The notes below the pieces were generated by a model. It did no database searches, was not told the DNA's origin, and worked only from the letters and a program-made list of their open reading frames with translations. Positions 5,463-13,526 of a DNA stretch of 23,871 nucleotides are shown here, piece by piece (position 1 is the first letter of the stretch; each line of letters opens with the position of its first letter). Source of the stretch: a virus; IMG/VR virus record IMGVR_UViG_3300025632_000079, positions 1 to 23,871 of that record; one strand, written 5' to 3'. The translations under genes were made by a program, and so were the position numbers.

Positions 5463-5492
5463 TTGACAGTATCGCATAACATCCCATATAGT
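5463..5492 (+). promoter_or_regulatory. Sigma70-type promoter with ATCGCATA operator motif
   Basis: Perfect -35 TTGACA (5463-5468), 18-base spacer and TATAGT (5487-5492). The recurrent 8-mer ATCGCATA sits in the spacer (5471-5478), where a bound protein would block RNA polymerase. The ribosome site TATGGAG follows at 5507-5513. Confidence 0.75.
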
Positions 5493-5519
5493 TAAACGGC
5501 ATAAACTATGGAGATGAAA

Positions 5520-5915
5520 ATGCAAAAACTACTGTCTATCGAAGAAGTAATGAAAATCACAGGTAAAGCTAAACCTACAATATACCGGCGTACCGCAGAA
5601 GGCACGTTCCCAACACCCGTCGAAGTGCCGTCAACCGCGCTCCGCGGGCCAAAAACAAAAAAAATGTGGGACGAAAAAGACATAATGGCGTGGAAAAGAG
5701 AAATGAAGTTCGTGCCGAAAAAAGAAAATATCGTCCTCGACAACGGTGAAAACATCGGAAGACAAGAACAAAACCACGAACAGGTTAACCCCTTTTCAAA
5801 CAACCCGTGGACGAACCTGCTAGACGAACCAAAATGGTACGTTAAACATAAATTCCTAGTCTGGGCCGCCATCGGAGGCCTGCTCGCAGGTATAATAGGA
5901 AGCGTTTGGGGTTAA
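5520..5915 (+). CDS. AlpA-like DNA-binding protein with C-terminal membrane helix
   Basis: 131 residues from ATG 5520 (GGAG six bases upstream; the ATG at 5508 is part of that site). The N-terminal ~60 residues (LLSIEEVMKITGKAKPTIYRR, then GTFPTPVEVPS and KMWDEKDIMAWKRE) follow the MerR/AlpA-type winged-helix excisionase/activator pattern. The C-terminus has a hydrophobic segment at about 112-130 (FLVWAAIGGLLAGIIGSVW) preceded by Lys/His, so it may be anchored in the inner membrane with the DNA-binding domain in the cytoplasm. A polar linker joins the parts. AlpA proteins are normally soluble, ~70 residues. It has its own promoter carrying ATCGCATA, shared with later cassettes. Confidence 0.75.
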   Translation: MQKLLSIEEVMKITGKAKPTIYRRTAEGTFPTPVEVPSTALRGPKTKKMWDEKDIMAWKREMKFVPKKENIVLDNGENIGRQEQNHEQVNPFSNNPWTNLLDEPKWYVKHKFLVWAAIGGLLAGIIGSVWG

Positions 5916-6996: not shown

Positions 6997-7626
6997 ATGG
7001 CCTCGAAAGCTAAATCAAGCCCCCCTGCTAAGATCAAAAGCCGCGGGCGACCTAAATCAACGAAATCAGCGGTCCTGACTAGGCGGCAAGAGCTTTTTGT
7101 AAAAGAGCTTGTCTCAAAAGACGGCCAGATCACTATGCGAGAAGCTGCCATTAATGCTGGATACCCCGCAGGATCAGCGCACACCCGAGCATATGAGATG
7201 ACCAATCCCAATATCTGTCCCCATGTGGTGGCAGCTATACAATCGTATCGCGCCGAGCTTGATGAAAAGTTTGGCGTGAATTACCAGCGGCATCTGCGCG
7301 ACCTTCAAACCATCCGCGATGCAGCATTAACCAACGGAGCCTATTCGGCAGCCGTTCAAGCAGAATATCGGCGGGGGCAAGCGCAAGGCGATATTTATGT
7401 GAGCAAATCAGAAATCCGTCATGGCAGTATCGATTCGATGAGCAAGGACGAAGTGCTGAACGCTCTGAAGGAGATTAAACAAAGTTATGCCCCGATCACT
7501 ATCGACGTTACTCCCGAAGGAGAGAGCAATCCCCAGAACCGCGACAAAGCGCGAGGCCGACTTTTGGAGGCTGATGAAGACTGGGATGCAGAAGAGCCCG
7601 AGAACATGGAAAAATACCCGAATTGA
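6997..7626 (+). CDS. terS: Terminase small subunit
   Basis: 209 residues, start ATG 6997 with AGGAT six bases upstream. After a basic tail, residues ~27-85 (LTRRQELFVKELVSKDG, TMREAAINAGYPAGSAHTRAYEM, VVAAIQSYRAELD) match the Terminase_2 DNA-binding helix-turn-helix family, which recognises the packaging site and delivers DNA to the large subunit. The middle is helical (oligomerisation), and the C-terminus is acidic (ADEDWDAEEPENME), as expected for contact with the large subunit. Unusually, terL lies 4.4 kb downstream. The last 140 bases may be translated in a second frame as the next gene. Confidence 0.85.
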   Translation: MASKAKSSPPAKIKSRGRPKSTKSAVLTRRQELFVKELVSKDGQITMREAAINAGYPAGSAHTRAYEMTNPNICPHVVAAIQSYRAELDEKFGVNYQRHLRDLQTIRDAALTNGAYSAAVQAEYRRGQAQGDIYVSKSEIRHGSIDSMSKDEVLNALKEIKQSYAPITIDVTPEGESNPQNRDKARGRLLEADEDWDAEEPENMEKYPN

Positions 7627-7948
7627 AACGTGGGCCATGCCGGGTATCCCGGATGTCTTATGTTGTGATGAAAACGGTAAGTTTCATTTTGTAGAATTAA
7701 AGGCGACCTCTGGGAACGCAGTGGACCTGCGACCTCATCAAGTCGCTTGGCTTACAACGCACAGTCATGCCAGCGTTTGGGTTTTAGTCCGTAAGCTGCA
7801 AACCAAAACAAAGCCTCAAATGATTTATTTGTACCATGGTAAAGACGCAATGGATTTAAAGATGGAAGGCCTGAAGGTTGCACCGGTCTATTCGTCCGAC
7901 GGGGATTTTGACTGGGATAAAATAATGGGCTTGATTTCTCCCATATGA
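7487..7948 (+). CDS. PD-(D/E)XK (VRR-NUC-like) nuclease
   Basis: The conserved core lies after residue ~20: E23-ADFWRLMK helix, TRIETWAMPGIPDVL (catalytic D), KFHFVELKAT (E-x-K), then RPHQVAWL with the typical Gln, and VWVLVRK. This is the VRR-NUC/Holliday-resolvase-like fold, cutting branched or structured DNA; next to terminase genes such nucleases may trim DNA before packaging. The start is uncertain: ATG 7487 lacks a good ribosome site, ATG 7574 would cut the first helix, and a strong AAGGAG (7517-7522) stands six bases before an in-frame ATC at 7529. In any case the gene overlaps terS in another frame. Confidence 0.75.
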   Translation: MPRSLSTLLPKERAIPRTATKREADFWRLMKTGMQKSPRTWKNTRIETWAMPGIPDVLCCDENGKFHFVELKATSGNAVDLRPHQVAWLTTHSHASVWVLVRKLQTKTKPQMIYLYHGKDAMDLKMEGLKVAPVYSSDGDFDWDKIMGLISPI

Positions 7949-7982
7949 TCGCATAATATCTTAGACCTAACTAACTACGGAG
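7931..7982 (+). promoter_or_regulatory. Cassette promoter with ATCGCATA and TACGGAG
   Basis: TTGATT (7931-7936), 17-base spacer, TAATAT (7954-7959). ATCGCATA lies at 7948-7955, overlapping the -10. Ribosome site ACGGAG at 7977-7982 serves the gene at 7989. Confidence 0.6.
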
Positions 7983-7988
7983 ATTATT

Positions 7989-8201
7989 ATGAAACATGAT
8001 GAAAGACACGGCGGTCCATATGATCGAGGACGGGCGGACTATTGGTATAACCGACCGGTTGACCCTCATTACTTTACGGGTGGCACGAGAAGTAGAGACT
8101 GCGCGACCTGCGTGACAGATTTAAAACCGTCTGAATTAAAGGCTTATCATGCGGGTTATTGTGATGGGGAAGCCGACGGCGGCCAAAAGGATTGGGGTTA
8201 A
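7989..8201 (+). CDS. Small phage protein of the DRGxADxYY type
   Basis: 70 residues. The pattern GPYDRGRADYWYNRPVDPHYF followed by LKPSELKAYHAGYCDGEADG is familiar from small conserved phage proteins, in which an Arg/Tyr/His-rich first half precedes an E-x-x-AY-x-GY helix. The role is unknown; two cysteines (CATC) could bind metal. It has its own promoter and ribosome site and is followed at once by a 39-codon frame and a terminator, forming the first accessory cassette between terS and terL. Confidence 0.75.
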   Translation: MKHDERHGGPYDRGRADYWYNRPVDPHYFTGGTRSRDCATCVTDLKPSELKAYHAGYCDGEADGGQKDWG

Positions 8202-8321
8202 ATGTTTTTATTTAATTGGCTTGGCAAATTATTATACGGTAAAGAGGCGTGGGAAAAGCAGGATCGTGAAAAGGCGCGGCGGCGGCCGATAAAACAAAAG
8301 CCTAAAAGACGTAAAAAATAA
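8202..8321 (+). CDS. Putative 39-residue basic protein
   Basis: ATG one base after the previous stop. The product has a hydrophobic N-terminus (MFLFNWLGKLLYGK) and a very basic tail (KARRRPIKQKPKRRKK), resembling a small membrane- or nucleic-acid-associated peptide. No clean ribosome site except AAGG 15 bases upstream, so it would depend on coupling. It ends nine bases before a terminator, which supports its being the second gene of the cassette. Confidence 0.5.
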   Translation: MFLFNWLGKLLYGKEAWEKQDREKARRRPIKQKPKRRKK

Positions 8322-8329
8322 TAAAATTA

Positions 8330-8354
8330 AACCCGGTTGACGCCGGGTTTTTTA
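8330..8354 (+). terminator. Rho-independent terminator
   Basis: AACCCGG (8330-8336) / CCGGGTT (8343-8349), loop TTGACG, then a T-run to 8352. Confidence 0.9.
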
Positions 8355-8375
8355 TTGCGCTATAGTATGGGATAA

Positions 8376-8395
8376 GTCGCATACATTACGGAGGG
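8376..8395 (+). promoter_or_regulatory. ATCGCATA-like motif and ACGGAG site
   Basis: GTCGCATA (8376-8383, one mismatch to the recurrent 8-mer) is followed by ACGGAGGG (8388-8395) before ATG 8402. Upstream, CTATAGTATGGGATAAG resembles the other cassette leaders and could hold a -10 TATAGT. Confidence 0.5.
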
Positions 8396-8401
8396 CAAAC
8401 C

Positions 8402-9112
8402 ATGTTAAAGACTGTTGAACTAAGCCGCGCCAAAAAAACAAAGGGCATTGCGGTAACATATAGAGCGGGCACCGGGGAAAAATACGGGACCTGCCCGACC
8501 ACGTGCAAAATGAATTGCAGCGGGAAAGGCACCGAAAAGATCGACGCAGATTACCTTGACGCGTTGCTGGATGCAAAACCGGCCAAAGGCGTTTCATTTA
8601 CTTACTCGCATTTCGATCCGCATGTTTTTAATTGGGGCCGCAAATTGCGGGCAGATAAAACCGTTATTAATTACAGCACCGAAAACTTAGGCGCGGCAGC
8701 CGCGTCAATTCATAACGGCGTCCCGTCCGTCGCGGTGGTAAGTGAGCAATCATGGCAGGGAAAGAAAACGCAACCGGCCCCGCATGGTATTAACGTCGTG
8801 CGGTGTCCTGCGGAAATCCGGGACATTTCCTGCGCGGATTGTGGAAACGGTGATCCACTTTGCGCCCGATTAGATCGCAATTTTATTATTGGATTTACTG
8901 CGCATGGCCCCAGCAAAAGAAAAGCCGCGGATTTAAACGTAAAAGGCGGATGTTATGCGGACGCCGGTAATTGCCGAATATGGTGGGATGATACGGCGAA
9001 CGGTGCGCAGCCGGATGAAACCGACGGGGAAAAGCTTTTGCGGTTTGTTAAAGGCCTGCCGCCGCGGTCTATTGTGCGGCACCATGTGGCGGGTGATATC
9101 GGGGCAGAATAA
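8402..9112 (+). CDS. gp88/DUF7227-like Cys-rich phage protein
   Basis: 236 residues, start ATG 8402 with GGAGGG upstream. Nine cysteines: C31-x3-C35-x3-C39 near the N-terminus, C135, C144-x2-C147-x6-C154, and C184-x6-C191. Recognisable gp88 (DUF7227) blocks are GVSFTYSHF, CPAEIRDISCADC followed by CARLDRNFIIGFTAHG, GGCYADAGNC and RHHVAGDIG. From memory, the usual family order places GCYA and RH-x-AGD before the YTH/CPA/FPAHG half; here they come last. The cysteines suggest bound zinc or an iron-sulfur cluster; no activity is known for the family. It forms its own cassette between a terminator at 8330 and one at 9163. Confidence 0.7.
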   Translation: MLKTVELSRAKKTKGIAVTYRAGTGEKYGTCPTTCKMNCSGKGTEKIDADYLDALLDAKPAKGVSFTYSHFDPHVFNWGRKLRADKTVINYSTENLGAAAASIHNGVPSVAVVSEQSWQGKKTQPAPHGINVVRCPAEIRDISCADCGNGDPLCARLDRNFIIGFTAHGPSKRKAADLNVKGGCYADAGNCRIWWDDTANGAQPDETDGEKLLRFVKGLPPRSIVRHHVAGDIGAE

Positions 9113-9129
9113 CTTTCTAAAAAATAAAG

Positions 9130-9162
9130 CTTGCAACCATATGCAAGTTTATGCGAGATTAT
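9130..9162 (+). promoter_or_regulatory. CTTGCA inverted repeat and inverted CTCGCATA
   Basis: Perfect inverted repeat CTTGCA (9130-9135) / TGCAAG (9142-9147). CTTGCA is also the core of the tandem TCTTGCAT at the RHH gene. TATGCGAG (9150-9157) is the cassette 8-mer in reverse with one mismatch. It may be an operator; a terminator follows immediately, so a promoter here would give only a short RNA. Confidence 0.45.
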
Positions 9163-9194
9163 AGGAGCGGGCCGGGCAATGGCTCGCTCCTTTT
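9163..9194 (+). terminator. Rho-independent terminator
   Basis: AGGAGCG (9163-9169) / CGCTCCT (9185-9191), inner GCC/GGC pairing, then TTTT. Confidence 0.85.
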
Positions 9195-9216
9195 AACTTT
9201 TACGGAGATTAATAAC

Positions 9217-10407
9217 ATGACTTATACAACTAACGCCTTCGCGCACGGTATCGGAAACAGTGCAGTTTCATCACAATGGTTTAGCCGCCCGGACGATCAA
9301 AAGTTTTTGACGCTTGACGATATGCTGGCGCACAAAAAGATTGATTCGCAGCGCATGACAAGCCGCACCGTTGACACGCACAAGGTCAAAATCATCGGAG
9401 ACTTTGACGAAGAAAACCCCAGCCGGGGAAATATCTTTGTTGAATATACGGATGACAATCGCCGCGAGCATAATAACACCCCCACCAATTGGAGTTTTGG
9501 CCAGCTATCACAATTAGCAGGCGCACCCGCTGGATATCTGCGCGACTTGCCCGCACCTATTGCGGCGGACTGTATCCAATGGGGTTTGAAGTATAACCGG
9601 GGAAAGGAGTTGATTAAAGTTTACGGACATCAGGCGCAGGGCGGGGAATTGCGAGCCGCAACCGGTCCGGACTATGGCCGGATTTTTGATTGGGAAATAT
9701 TAGAGCCCATCAAAAACTTGATTGATGAAAGTGGCGGGCGCTGGAAAGTGCCCGGGATGATGACCGGCAGCCGCAACGGCATGGCCGTTTATGATCCGGA
9801 GGTCCCTGTTACTATGGACACGACCACCCTTTTCGCGTCGGATCGGGACGTTTTCGTTTTCCTTGTGGATGACCGCAACCCCATCGAAGTGGGCAAGCTT
9901 CCAAACGGTGAACCTGATTTGATGTTTCGCGGGTTTTATGCGTGGAACAGTGAAACCGGCAGCAAAACCGCCGGGATCGCTGCAATGTATTTGCGCGGCG
10001 TTTGTATGAATCGAAACTTGTGGGGCGTTGAAAACTTCCATGAAATTAAAATCCGCCATACAAAATTCGCGCCGGATCGGTTTGCAATGGAGGCCCGCCC
10101 CGCGTTGCAATCCTTTGCGAACGGTTCAACGCATTCTTTTGTTGAAGGGGTGCAAGCCGCCAAAGATGCCCGCATTGCTAAAACAGATGAGGACCGTCTA
10201 GACTTTTTGACAAAGCGCGCCGGTTTATCTGGACGCATGGCGCGGGCAGCAAACGCCCGCCACTTGACCGAAGAGGGCCGCCCAGTGGAGACCGTTTGGG
10301 ATGCTGCGCAGGCAATAACCGCAATTGCCCGCGACGTTCCCCATCAAGATGCGAGAATTGAAGTTGAACGGAAGGCGGGCGCGTTGCTGGACAAAGTGAC
10401 CGCATAA
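9217..10407 (+). CDS. DUF932 domain protein
   Basis: 396 residues from ATG 9217, preceded by TACGGAG; the longer frame from 9151 runs through the terminator and is rejected. The arrangement of a short N-terminal region, LSQLAGAPAGYLRDLP (about 100), LRAATGPDYGRIFDWEIL (about 153-170), a central beta-rich part and MYLRGVCMNRNLWG (about 270) matches DUF932, the phage/plasmid-like family often found in phages and plasmids. Biochemical activity is unknown to me. It is a monocistronic cassette; the ribosome-site module is the same as in the neighbouring cassettes, and a terminator follows 24 bases after the stop. Confidence 0.85.
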   Translation: MTYTTNAFAHGIGNSAVSSQWFSRPDDQKFLTLDDMLAHKKIDSQRMTSRTVDTHKVKIIGDFDEENPSRGNIFVEYTDDNRREHNNTPTNWSFGQLSQLAGAPAGYLRDLPAPIAADCIQWGLKYNRGKELIKVYGHQAQGGELRAATGPDYGRIFDWEILEPIKNLIDESGGRWKVPGMMTGSRNGMAVYDPEVPVTMDTTTLFASDRDVFVFLVDDRNPIEVGKLPNGEPDLMFRGFYAWNSETGSKTAGIAAMYLRGVCMNRNLWGVENFHEIKIRHTKFAPDRFAMEARPALQSFANGSTHSFVEGVQAAKDARIAKTDEDRLDFLTKRAGLSGRMARAANARHLTEEGRPVETVWDAAQAITAIARDVPHQDARIEVERKAGALLDKVTA

Positions 10408-10431
10408 GCCGCCGCTATATAATAAGACCCG

Positions 10432-10457
10432 GGGCCGCCATTGTGCGGCCCTTTTTT
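10432..10457 (+). terminator. Rho-independent terminator, CATTGT loop
   Basis: GGGCCGC (10432-10438) / GCGGCCC (10445-10451), six-base loop CATTGT, then six T. Preceded by CGCTATATAATAAGAC, which recurs before the next cassette's terminator. Confidence 0.9.
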
Positions 10458-10465
10458 GTGGGGGG

Positions 10466-10494
10466 TTTACTTTTAAATAAATTAATCGCATATT
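10466..10494 (+). promoter_or_regulatory. Cassette promoter with ATCGCATA
   Basis: TTTACT (10466-10471), 17-base spacer, CATATT (10489-10494); ATCGCATA at 10485-10492. The leader continues GCGGCGGGCAAGCCGCG and CTATGGAG, a layout repeated at 11034-11104. Confidence 0.6.
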
Positions 10495-10546
10495 ATCCCA
10501 CATGCGGCGGGCAAGCCGCGTTAACCTAACCTATGGAGTGAAAAAA

Positions 10547-10975
10547 ATGACAAATGTTTTCGAATTAAATTTCCGGGCGTCCGACATTCTTTTGGATCGC
10601 GTTTTAAATCCGGCCAAAGATCAAGACACCGGGCGCAACCGTCCCGAGGATTTAGTTGAAGCTTGCGGGATCATCCCCGACTTTTTCCTTGAGGCCTGCC
10701 ACTTTGCAAAAGATAGCGAGACCGGTTTGACGCTGGAAAACGTTTGCGCCGGTATGGATAACGCTTATCAGATGGGCGGGTTTGGGTCTTATCCTTGGAA
10801 GGGGACACTAGACCACAATGGGACATATCAGGCGGATAACGACGAAGACGCACCACTTGCACCGCTGGCCCGGTTTGGTTTTGAAGGGCGCGTTTTCTGT
10901 TATGTTTATGACTACGGCGTCGCGGCGGTCCGCATCGGATTAGATGGACCTTATAAAATCGCCCGGTTTGATTAA
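10547..10975 (+). CDS. Hypothetical cassette protein
   Basis: 142 residues from ATG 10547 (TATGGAG upstream; the frame from 10502 begins inside the leader repeat and is rejected). Sequence not recognised. It has a helical N-terminal half (NFRASDILLDRVL, LVEACGIIPDFFLEACHFAKD), a Gly/Asn/Asp-rich middle (MGGFGSYPWKGTLDHNGTY) and a beta-rich end (FCYVYDYGVAAVRIGLDGPYKIARFD), so a compact cytoplasmic protein is likely. It is monocistronic between its own promoter and terminator and next to DUF932, with which it may work; this is suggested by position only. Confidence 0.65.
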   Translation: MTNVFELNFRASDILLDRVLNPAKDQDTGRNRPEDLVEACGIIPDFFLEACHFAKDSETGLTLENVCAGMDNAYQMGGFGSYPWKGTLDHNGTYQADNDEDAPLAPLARFGFEGRVFCYVYDYGVAAVRIGLDGPYKIARFD

Positions 10976-10999
10976 TCCCACGCTATATAATAAGACACC

Positions 11000-11025
11000 G
11001 GCCCGCCATTGTGCGGGCCTTTTTT
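11000..11025 (+). terminator. Rho-independent terminator, CATTGT loop
   Basis: GGCCCGC (11000-11006) / GCGGGCC (11013-11019), loop CATTGT, then six T. It is a near copy of the 10432 terminator, with CGCTATATAATAAGAC before it. Confidence 0.9.
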
Positions 11026-11033
11026 GTGCCCCC

Positions 11034-11069
11034 TTTACTTTCTATTAAATTAACGCATATTATCGCATA
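11034..11069 (+). promoter_or_regulatory. Cassette promoter with two ATCGCATA-type motifs
   Basis: TTTACT (11034-11039), 16-base spacer, CATATT (11056-11061). AACGCATA at 11052-11059 and exact ATCGCATA at 11062-11069. Followed by the GCGGCGGGCAAGCCGCG leader and CTATGGAG. Confidence 0.6.
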
Positions 11070-11112
11070 GCGGCGGGCAAGCCGCGTTAACCTTTTCTAT
11101 GGAGTAGAAAAC

Positions 11113-11517
11113 ATGATTGAACTAAAAACAAACCCCGACCACCTACACGCAATCGCAAGTAATGTTCGCCTGACCGATCAGACCGACCTTGCGCACGATC
11201 TCGACGCCGCAGCGCATGACATGAAAAACTTGCGCGACTACGGCGAACGGCTGGAACGTAGCACCCAGCAAATGAGCGGTGAAATTCAAAGCATACGCAC
11301 CCAGCGCGACGAAGCCGCCGCCGCCTTGCTGGCCATCTTTAAACCCGAGCTTGAGAAGATGATTGACGCCGCCGTTAATGATTGCCGCGCTATTTCCGAC
11401 ATCGAGGACCGGCTGGACAACTTAGAAGACCCCGGCAACCTAACGGACACGGTTCGCAGTGAGGTCAAGGACATGATACGCGACGGTGACATCACAATCA
11501 GCATCGCTCACGTGTAA
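11113..11517 (+). CDS. Hypothetical coiled-coil cassette protein
   Basis: 134 residues, start ATG 11113 with TATGGAG upstream. The central part (about 25-75) is a long charged helix with heptad character (DLDAAAHDMKNLRDYGERLE, then QQMSGEIQSIRTQRDEAAAA), followed by an acidic second helix set (IEDRLDNLEDPGNLTDTV). It is probably an elongated dimer or trimer. No family recognised. It is the last cassette before the GC-rich element and terL, with a promoter nearly duplicated from the previous cassette. Confidence 0.65.
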   Translation: MIELKTNPDHLHAIASNVRLTDQTDLAHDLDAAAHDMKNLRDYGERLERSTQQMSGEIQSIRTQRDEAAAALLAIFKPELEKMIDAAVNDCRAISDIEDRLDNLEDPGNLTDTVRSEVKDMIRDGDITISIAHV

Positions 11518-11545
11518 CACCCTCACAGCCCCCACAACGACGATC

Positions 11546-11574
11546 AGGCCCGCCATTGCGCGGGCCTTTTCTTT
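11546..11574 (+). terminator. Rho-independent terminator, CATTGC loop
   Basis: AGGCCCGC (11546-11553) / GCGGGCCT (11560-11567), loop CATTGC, then T-rich TTTCTTTT. Third member of the CATTGY-loop series. Confidence 0.9.
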
Positions 11575-11591
11575 TGCGCAGAGTTAAACAG

Positions 11592-11935
11592 TGAAACAAG
11601 CCGGGCCAAGGCCCGCGGCGTACCGCCCAAACCTACCGGGCCGAGATCCCCGGCCGCTGGACCGGGCCCAGCCGGTGACGGTTAGCGATCCCCAGCCGGT
11701 GGCAGTTAGAGCGCAGCCGGTGCCAATTAACCGAGCCCACCGGGCAAAAATTAACGCGCAGCCGTCCCCGGTCCGACATCAAAACCCGCGCAGCTGGACC
11801 CCGGGCCACGGCCCGCGATCCCCGGCAATTCGCCCGGGTCCCCCGGATATCGGGTCAAAAACCACAGTTTTCGCGCCAAAAAACCAGCCCAAAACCCGCG
11901 GCCCGGGGTTTGCGTACCGAGGGCTTGGGCCATGT
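11592..11935. other. Very GC-rich non-coding element before terL
   Basis: About 340 bases, clearly richer in GC than either flank and dense in CCCGGG, CCGCGG and GGGCCC palindromes. AGCCGGTG followed by a variable C-x-x-TTA recurs three times at roughly 22-25 base steps (about 11669-11730), and GATCCCC recurs three times. A GTG-started frame (11591-11986) spans it, but its Pro/Arg-rich product and lack of a ribosome site argue against translation. Possibilities are a structured RNA, a packaging site or foreign repeat DNA; nothing decides between them. Confidence 0.5.
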
Positions 11936-12005: not shown

Positions 12006-12021
12006 TGTTTCACGTGAAACA
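12006..12021. promoter_or_regulatory. parS: Perfect chromosomal-type parS site
   Basis: TGTTTCACGTGAAACA is a perfect 16-bp palindrome identical to the bacterial chromosomal parS consensus bound by ParB. It lies in the presumed terL leader, directly after the ATCGCATA motif and 41 bases before the terL start. No parA or parB is in the window, so host ParB is the likely reader. Sequence identity is certain; function is inferred. Confidence 0.8.
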
Positions 12022-12062: not shown

Positions 12063-13526
12063 ATGAACGTTGCTCAAAATTCGTTGTTAGAGGATAAAAA
12101 ATTAAAATTAGAGTTACGTTTGGCTCAGATCATGAAGAATGAGGAGTGCCAAAATAATTTTTTAGTTTTTGTAAAAACTGTTTGGCCTGATTTTATTGCG
12201 GGCCGTCATCATAAGATTATTGCTGAGAAGTTGGAAAGGGTTGCAAATGGCGACTTAAAGCGACTTATCATCAACATGGCTCCGCGGCACACGAAGAGTG
12301 AGTTTGCGAGTTATTTATTTCCGGCATGGATGATGGGCCGTAATCCGAAGATGAAGATCATTCAGGCGACGCACACGACGGAGTTAGCGGTTAACTTTGG
12401 TCGTAAGACGAAGAACTTGATTGAGAGTGACGATTACAAGGATGTGTTCCCGGGCGTGAAGCTGGCTGCTGACAGTAAGGCGAGTGGTCGTTGGGACACG
12501 AGTTCTGGCGGGATGTATTATGCTGTTGGTGTTGGTTCGAACTTAGCTGGTCGTGGTGGTGATTTAATTATCATTGACGACCCTCATTCTGAGCAGACGG
12601 CGATGAGCAACACTGGTTTTGAGGACGCTTGGGATTGGTACACGGGTGGACCGAGGCAGCGTTTACAGCCGGGTGGGAGCATAGTTTTGGTTCAGACGCG
12701 GTGGTCTGAGAAGGACATGACGGGTCAGTTGATGCGGGCTCAAGCGAAGGACGGTTCTGCGGATCAGTGGGAAGTCGTTGAATTACCTGCTATTTTTGAG
12801 GACGGGACTTCTTGTTGGCCTGAGTATTGGAGTTTGGAGGATTTGACTGCGGTTAAGGCTTCTATTCCTCCGAGCAAGTGGAATGCGCAATATCAGCAAA
12901 ATCCTACGGGTGAGGAGAATGCGATTATCAAGCGCGAGTGGTGGCGTGTTTGGGATCAGGATAAGGTTCCTCAGTTGGAATATGTTATTCAGAGTTACGA
13001 CACGGCTTTTAGTAAGCGGGAGACTGCTGACTTTAGTGCGATTACGACGTGGGGGGTATTTTATCCGAATGAGGGTGGTTCTGGGCCTAATTTAATTTTG
13101 TTGGATGTTAAGAAAGGGCGTTGGGATTTTCCTGAGTTAAAGCAGGAGGCTTTAGAAAATTATAAATTTTGGGAGCCTGACACGGTTATTGTTGAGGCGA
13201 AGGCTTCTGGGACCCCTTTGACGCAGGAGTTACGTGCTATGGGGATTCCTGTTGTGAATTTCACTCCAAGTCGTGGTAATGACAAGATTACTCGGGCGCA
13301 TAGTATAGCGCCATTATTTGAGGCTGGGATGGTTTGGGCTCCTGACGAGATGTGGGCGGAGGAGTTAATTGAGGAGGTTGCGGCGTTCCCGAATGGGGAG
13401 CATGACGACTTGGTAGATAGTATGACGCAGGCACTTATGCGCTATAGACAAGGTAATTTTGTACAATTACCAACAGATGACTGGGAAGATGAAGAAAACT
13501 CTGCTAAAGTGCGATTGTATTATTAG
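12063..13526 (+). CDS. terL: Terminase large subunit
   Basis: 487 residues, start ATG 12063 with AGGG seven bases upstream. ATPase domain: Walker A-like MAPRHTKSE (72-80, a phage variant of PRHGKS), Walker B LIIIDD (168-173) and coupling motif QTRW (211-214). Nuclease domain (RNase H-like): D313 (SYDTAF), E378 (VIVEAKASG) and D448/D449 (GEHDDLVDS). It packages DNA into the prohead and cuts the concatemer. Third codon positions are rich in T and G, unlike the A-rich early block. It opens the head operon behind its own promoter, the parS site and a recurrent operator motif. Confidence 0.95.
   Translation: MNVAQNSLLEDKKLKLELRLAQIMKNEECQNNFLVFVKTVWPDFIAGRHHKIIAEKLERVANGDLKRLIINMAPRHTKSEFASYLFPAWMMGRNPKMKIIQATHTTELAVNFGRKTKNLIESDDYKDVFPGVKLAADSKASGRWDTSSGGMYYAVGVGSNLAGRGGDLIIIDDPHSEQTAMSNTGFEDAWDWYTGGPRQRLQPGGSIVLVQTRWSEKDMTGQLMRAQAKDGSADQWEVVELPAIFEDGTSCWPEYWSLEDLTAVKASIPPSKWNAQYQQNPTGEENAIIKREWWRVWDQDKVPQLEYVIQSYDTAFSKRETADFSAITTWGVFYPNEGGSGPNLILLDVKKGRWDFPELKQEALENYKFWEPDTVIVEAKASGTPLTQELRAMGIPVVNFTPSRGNDKITRAHSIAPLFEAGMVWAPDEMWAEELIEEVAAFPNGEHDDLVDSMTQALMRYRQGNFVQLPTDDWEDEENSAKVRLYY

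Follow-up and report, generated by a model that had tools for sequence, protein, structure and literature searches.

Evidence for gene exchange at repeated regulatory joints between terS and terL in a group of marine phages

Introduction

Morons, reportedly described in lambdoid phages by Hendrix, Juhala and colleagues, are accessory genes that lie among the late genes, come with a promoter and a terminator of their own, and vary between relatives. Genomes of lambdoid and other phages are known to switch at short conserved boundary (linker) sequences between genes. In Cluster K mycobacteriophages, the start-associated sequence (SAS), which also occurs in an extended form (ESAS), places GGGATAGGAGCCC before start codons genome-wide (PMC3203893). 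Here we describe a locus that resembles each of these in part, the gap between the terminase genes terS and terL in a 23,871-base viral contig of a marine phage from IMG/VR (record IMGVR_UViG_3300025632_000079; "the window" means this whole stretch, and coordinates are given in it unless a locus is named). The gap runs from the end of a nuclease-like gene that overlaps terS (7948) to the start of terL (12063) and holds five leaders, all with the ribosome site TAYGGAG.

We consider it quite probable, judging from comparisons with related phages, that the gap is best explained as a row of small transcription units whose genes swap by recombination at the joints formed by leaders and terminators. 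The breakpoints illustrate a way for a phage group to trade genes while leaving their expression intact, the exchange handle being the regulatory joint itself. The joints also provide an address at which to seek new host-takeover or counter-defense genes in uncultured marine phages.

Exchange at the joints

A TerL search yielded 80 viral loci (designated by L numbers), and 30 intervals run from terS or the nuclease-like gene to terL, some of them cut at the left end. In L006 and L007, whose TerL is 99% identical to that of the window, the gene of the first unit (cassette 1) is replaced by an unrelated gene of 132 amino acids (aa). The DNA of these two loci matches the window up to the cassette 1 ribosome site (7983) and resumes at 8307, ahead of the terminator; the 132-aa gene, when the sequences are compared by reading, resembles a family present in L052, L053, and L071. 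A second swap concerns the gene for a 142-aa protein in L071. The DNA of this gene is mostly 83 to 93% identical to that of the window, whereas both flanking joints are closer to those of its own clade (L056 and L060), and the encoded protein has 93% identity to the window's protein, compared to 52 to 53% within its own clade.

The joints carry signs of exchange as well. In L009, the leader of the next gene in the row (134 aa) is a chimera of 142-type and 134-type segments. Across 20 genomes, the identity between the leaders of the 142 and 134 genes is 0.77 within a genome, compared to 0.645 between genomes and 0.66 to 0.67 for orthologous leaders; none of 10,000 permutations gave a within-genome likeness as high, and nine clade representatives agree. 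As far as sequence comparison goes, these results establish two gene swaps whose breakpoints on either side fall at signals, a chimeric leader, and homogenization of leaders within genomes. Directly upstream of the chimeric joint, we also observed a 36-codon open reading frame that extends across the 142-gene stop codon (L009:3169-3279).

A mechanism can be proposed. Each unit would hold a host-type promoter and a short leader, then one or two genes behind a TAYGGAG ribosome site; an intrinsic terminator would close most units, and three of them would have a leader hairpin at the predicted mRNA 5' end or close by. Homologous recombination between phages, presumably acting at leaders and terminators and served by a recombinase, would substitute the enclosed gene. 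The arriving gene would adopt ready-made signals, and its expression would be independent of the packaging genes and would stop ahead of terL. Conversion between the two joints of one genome would maintain their likeness. In this scheme, the predicted promoters and terminators would be active, and the 5' hairpin may protect the mRNA end or present its loop to a binding partner.

Organization of the interval

The features of the interval and its flanks are as follows.

6997..7626, + strand: terS, small terminase subunit, left flank (phrog_51, 4.6e-10; Terminase_2 below cut-off)
7487..7948, + strand: nuclease-like gene overlapping terS (phrog_2165, 5.5e-13; phrog_93, 1.5e-7), kept in relatives
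7949..7988, + strand: cassette 1 leader, with heptamer TCGCATA at 7949 and TACGGAG at 7976, retained in L006/L007 despite the different gene
7989..8322, + strand: cassette 1, with a 70-aa gene (7989-8201) and a 39-aa basic open reading frame (8202-8322); 132-aa gene instead in L006/L007
8329..8350, + strand: cassette 1 intrinsic terminator, its loop containing the -35 box of the following promoter
8337..8401, + strand: DUF7227 promoter-like TTGACG-18-TATAGT and leader, with TACGGAG at 8387
8402..9112, + strand: DUF7227 gene, near-core (PF23872, 2.8e-31; 21/23 intervals)
9113..9216, + strand: DUF932 promoter region and leader, with a strong 5' hairpin at 9163-9191 (loop GGGCAAT; fold z -4.4), conserved in relatives, and TACGGAG at 9201
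9217..10407, + strand: DUF932 gene, near-core (PF06067, 1.9e-5; phrog_1362, 4e-44; 20/23 intervals)
10405..10550, + strand: joint 1, with terminator 10431-10452, promoter TTTACT...TATTAT, GGGCAA-loop hairpin leader, and TATGGAG at 10532
10547..10975, + strand: 142-aa cassette gene (17/23 intervals; AlphaFold predicted local distance difference test [pLDDT] 81.6)
10973..11116, + strand: joint 2, with terminator 11000-11019, promoter, GGGCAA-loop hairpin leader, and TATGGAG at 11098; 83% identical to joint 1
11113..11517, + strand: 134-aa cassette gene, product modeled as a long helix (13/23 intervals)
11546..11567, + strand: terminator of the 134-aa cassette, CATTGC loop
11930..12062, + strand: conserved terL leader, with promoter-like TTTCCA-17-TATAAT and a perfect parS
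12006..12021, strand not applicable: parS, TGTTTCACGTGAAACA
12063..13526, + strand: terL, large terminase subunit, right flank (phrog_38, 6e-113)

The two joints align across 146 nucleotides (E 1.6e-37). Each reaches from the stop codon of one gene to the start codon of the next, and so includes the end of the upstream unit, in the order CGCTATATAATAAGAC, terminator, promoter, hairpin leader, and ribosome site. A first-pass annotation of the window had called the leaders at 10466-10540 and 11034-11104 near copies; they are, and the copy extends further than was described, taking in the upstream terminator. That annotation was also right that the DUF932, 142, and 134 units end in terminators with the same loop (CATTGY). 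Cores with the sequence CGCCATTGYGCGG stand at 10436, 11004, and 11551; the window has no others (0.11 expected if one mismatch is tolerated).

Of the five leaders, those of the 142 and 134 genes alone are near copies. The one ahead of DUF932 has the hairpin loop in common with them, and the first two leaders have only the heptamer and TAYGGAG in common. TAYGGAG occurs 9 times in the window against 3.4 expected, five of these preceding the five interval genes, and TCGCATA occurs 14 times against 2.56 expected, a fivefold excess. A leader with TCGCATA and TATGGAG (5472-5513) also precedes an AlpA/helix-turn-helix-like gene (5523-5915) outside the interval. The joint promoter, searched with a pattern that tolerates three mismatches and that more diverged joints (e.g., that of L053) escape, has only 0 to 2 matches in each of 13 whole records; by comparison with known leader positions, these matches are the 142 and 134 joints.

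The 142-aa protein has no match in Pfam, PHROG, GenBank phages, or PDB folds, and structure prediction for the 134-aa protein yields a long-helix model and nothing further. A search for DUF7227 in plasmids gave a single weak match. The search for a host in bacterial genome contigs returned two metagenome-assembled genomes (Rhodobacteraceae and Rhodospirillales), too few to name one. At the left flank, the overlap of the nuclease-like gene with terS (7487-7626) is 140 bases long and in a different frame, and relatives conserve both genes. At the right, about 0.5 kb between the 134-aa gene and terL is mostly G+C-rich and apparently noncoding; the stretch 11590-11930 is very G+C-rich, repeat-bearing, and poorly conserved, and it is probably noncoding despite a 131-codon open frame.

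The leader hairpin and rival explanations

Related loci totaling 826 kb hold 42 GGGCAA-loop hairpins with GGAG no more than 40 bases downstream, and permuted loops give a median of 0. Among 15 distinct sequences of the 142/134 leaders, 95.6% of stem cells are paired, and five of six pairs are altered on both sides. Stem covariation is 0.589, compared to 0.165 in shuffles, in a count that omits 3 of the 18 leader types, which have a TAAA insertion in the loop; the loop is otherwise almost invariant. Such a covarying stem is the signature to be expected of an RNA hairpin and not of a DNA operator, and the position of the -10 box puts the predicted transcription start no more than a few bases from the hairpin. 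The hairpin of the DUF932 leader is distinct and stronger. An initial scan had read it as a plain terminator; its position between promoter and ribosome site and its GGGCAA loop favor a leader hairpin, and it possibly also terminates DUF7227 transcripts. In the clade of L052, L053, L056, L060, and L071, a different leader hairpin is found, and most of these genomes have similar versions of it in their two leaders. Rfam covariance models gave no match to a known RNA family in the window.

The near-invariant hexaloop and covarying stems are what a binding site would show, and it could be that the two leaders of a genome are alike through coevolution with one lineage-specific regulator (a protein or a small RNA), with no conversion between them. 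Clade-specific promoter details that recur in both leaders of a genome (e.g., CCCATATAATCCC in L040) fit this idea. However, the leader in L009 is chimeric in segments that include flanking sequence beyond the promoter and hairpin (e.g., TAAACCGCCG), and the terminators appear to be homogenized as well. On balance we regard coevolution with a regulator as the strongest of the alternatives, albeit an unlikely one.

Still less likely, in our judgment, is that the hairpin serves antitermination, in the manner of nut/put or boxB-boxA elements, and that the row is one regulated operon in which the terminators are read through. This possibility is raised by loci L013, L018, L030, and L067, in which the same GGGCAA-loop hairpin directly precedes a boxA of the ribosomal RNA type (GCTCTTTGACAATTTAATC or similar) upstream of terS, and by L040, which shows the same hairpin-boxA arrangement; moreover, in many relatives a T-rich run follows the DUF932 leader hairpin, as if termination were regulated. 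Yet neither the 142 nor the 134 leader has a recognizable boxA, the promoters and terminators of these units are both conserved, and gap genes of the related phage HTVC027P show expression timing of their own. RNA sequencing of HTVC027P assigned gp30, gp33, and gp34 to two additional temporal clusters, separate from the early, middle, and late classes (PMC12753301), and all three genes lie between terS (gp29) and terL (gp40). This timing agrees with separate control of the gap genes, although HTVC027P lacks the joints. The boxB-boxA-like leaders precede a gene upstream of terS at L013:4162-4238, L018:786-861, L030:4325-4393, L040:2511, and L067:3657-3721.

Gene content among relatives

Across the 30 intervals, 11 arrangements of the five window genes are seen, and every one of these genes is lost in some relative. 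The order DUF7227, DUF932, 142, 134 is the commonest (13 of 30), the 134 gene lies ahead of the 142 gene in L040, and DUF932 lies ahead of DUF7227 in L037 and L049. A predominant order is what an ordinary fixed early-gene block would have, but that the row is such a block, with sequence divergence alone and no exchange, is very improbable given these changes of order, the gene replacement in relatives with a 99%-identical TerL, and the clade-discordant 142 gene of L071.

Several expectations of the first-pass annotation can be set against these results. It predicted that cassette number and content would vary among relatives, as they do, and the identical gene set and order that it named as the mark of a fixed core region did not appear. 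It also suggested a search for leader-leader recombination joints; the 142/134 chimera in L009 is one, and the swaps in L006/L007 and L071 break at leaders and terminators. Its description of a hot spot for accessory genes needs to be narrowed. The 70-aa gene (6 of 23 intervals) and the 142 and 134 genes (17 and 13) are variously present or absent at the same place in close relatives, as morons are, whereas DUF7227 (21 intervals, 91%) and DUF932 (20 intervals, 87%) are near-core and not morons; DUF932 or GP88/DUF7227-type proteins recur even among distant relatives. The proposal that the cassettes split terS from terL does not hold for any recent event: four related GenBank phages (HTVC027P, HTVC023P, 023Pt_psg01, and DSL-LC04) each have several genes between terS and terL, and the gap is therefore ancestral. 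Finally, the interval is variable, but it is not the genome's most variable stretch. Genes after terL fill 85% of presence cells and those before terS 33% (from eight loci, with one mis-framed query lowering the figure slightly). Variability ahead of terS is no lower than in the terS-terL interval, and we dropped the idea that the interval is the genome's only variable region.

The case for coevolution with a regulator weighs against recombination at the joints, and so do several further points. Breakpoints at leaders and terminators may be due in part to selection for functional hybrids and not to the sites of crossover. The near-duplicate pairs L045/L046, L026/L027, and L006/L007 mean that the 30 intervals are not independent samples, and with two near-core genes the row mixes fixed and exchangeable units. 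Nor are the units uniform. The first-pass annotation counted five units built in the same order, and the five leaders with TAYGGAG are indeed there, but the unit of DUF7227 (8402-9112) lacks its own terminator upstream of the DUF932 promoter, its sole candidate being the hairpin at 9163-9191 within the DUF932 leader. In addition, the DUF7227 promoter has its -35 box (8337) within the loop of the cassette 1 terminator (8329-8350), so that these two units overlap and do not follow each other cleanly.

parS in the terL leader

The sites adjoining the cassettes are a more surprising lead than the cassette exchange. The palindrome TGTTNCACGTGNAACA is the canonical consensus of the ParB-binding site parS, and TGTTTCACGTGAAACA in the terL leader of the window matches this 16-bp palindrome exactly, making it a perfect site of the host type; the T/C variation seen in relatives lies at a free position. 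The site keeps a fixed place in the terL leader (relatives L003 to L068) and is found in 59 of the 78 loci with enough sequence (one copy in 41, two in 18, none in 19). Among 12 IMG/VR records searched whole, 11 have parS, and all copies lie at terL except one in the L067 record. The strict site was not found in the four GenBank relatives. No ParB_N domain was detected in the 16 phage records searched, and thus host ParB would be needed for binding.

Tandem parS sites occur in 72 stretches of IMG/VR. A relative of the window TerL is encoded in 47 of them, and in 45 of these 47 the site lies 38 to 53 bases upstream of terL. The 25 additional tandem-parS viral contigs have no TerL relative (L090, L092, L107, L121, L129, L138, L148, and others), and some have three to five sites. 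A literature search, thin for subscription journals, found nothing on phage-borne parS in a terL-leader setting. We tentatively suggest that the phage may load the host ParB clamp at terL, which could serve the timing of terL, the placement or organization of DNA for packaging, or the titration of ParB off the host chromosome. The adjoining parS thus suggests a possible link between phage packaging and the chromosome-segregation protein ParB of the host.

Relation to known systems

By TerL, the nearest annotated relatives of the window phage are HTVC023P-type phages (PMC9599517), with 64% identity for HTVC027P and 56% for HTVC023P, together with 023Pt_psg01 and DSL-LC04, all within the range of 56 to 64%. 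They too have a multigene gap between terS and terL, and no matching joints were found in these four genomes. The SAS and ESAS (PMC3203893) are similar in that a repeated element with a ribosome site stands directly before unrelated genes, in some cases with inverted repeats. They differ in being genome-wide, in their sequence, and in that no terminator junction has been described for them; the leader sequence in the window is another one, and its joint promoter is restricted to one interval.

The morons of lambdoid phages are a further comparison. The window units have promoter-like and terminator-like sites (apart from the missing DUF7227 terminator), and some of their genes vary between relatives. 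In contrast to morons, several of these units follow one another at a single site and have near-identical joints, they include two near-core genes, and exchange swaps the gene while retaining the signals. Mosaic-boundary sequences are likewise places at which genomes switch, whereas the boundary here is a full expression signal that is present twice in one genome and homogenized within it. Overall, we conclude that this is the known modular exchange of accessory genes among phages, with an unusually tidy repeated joint.

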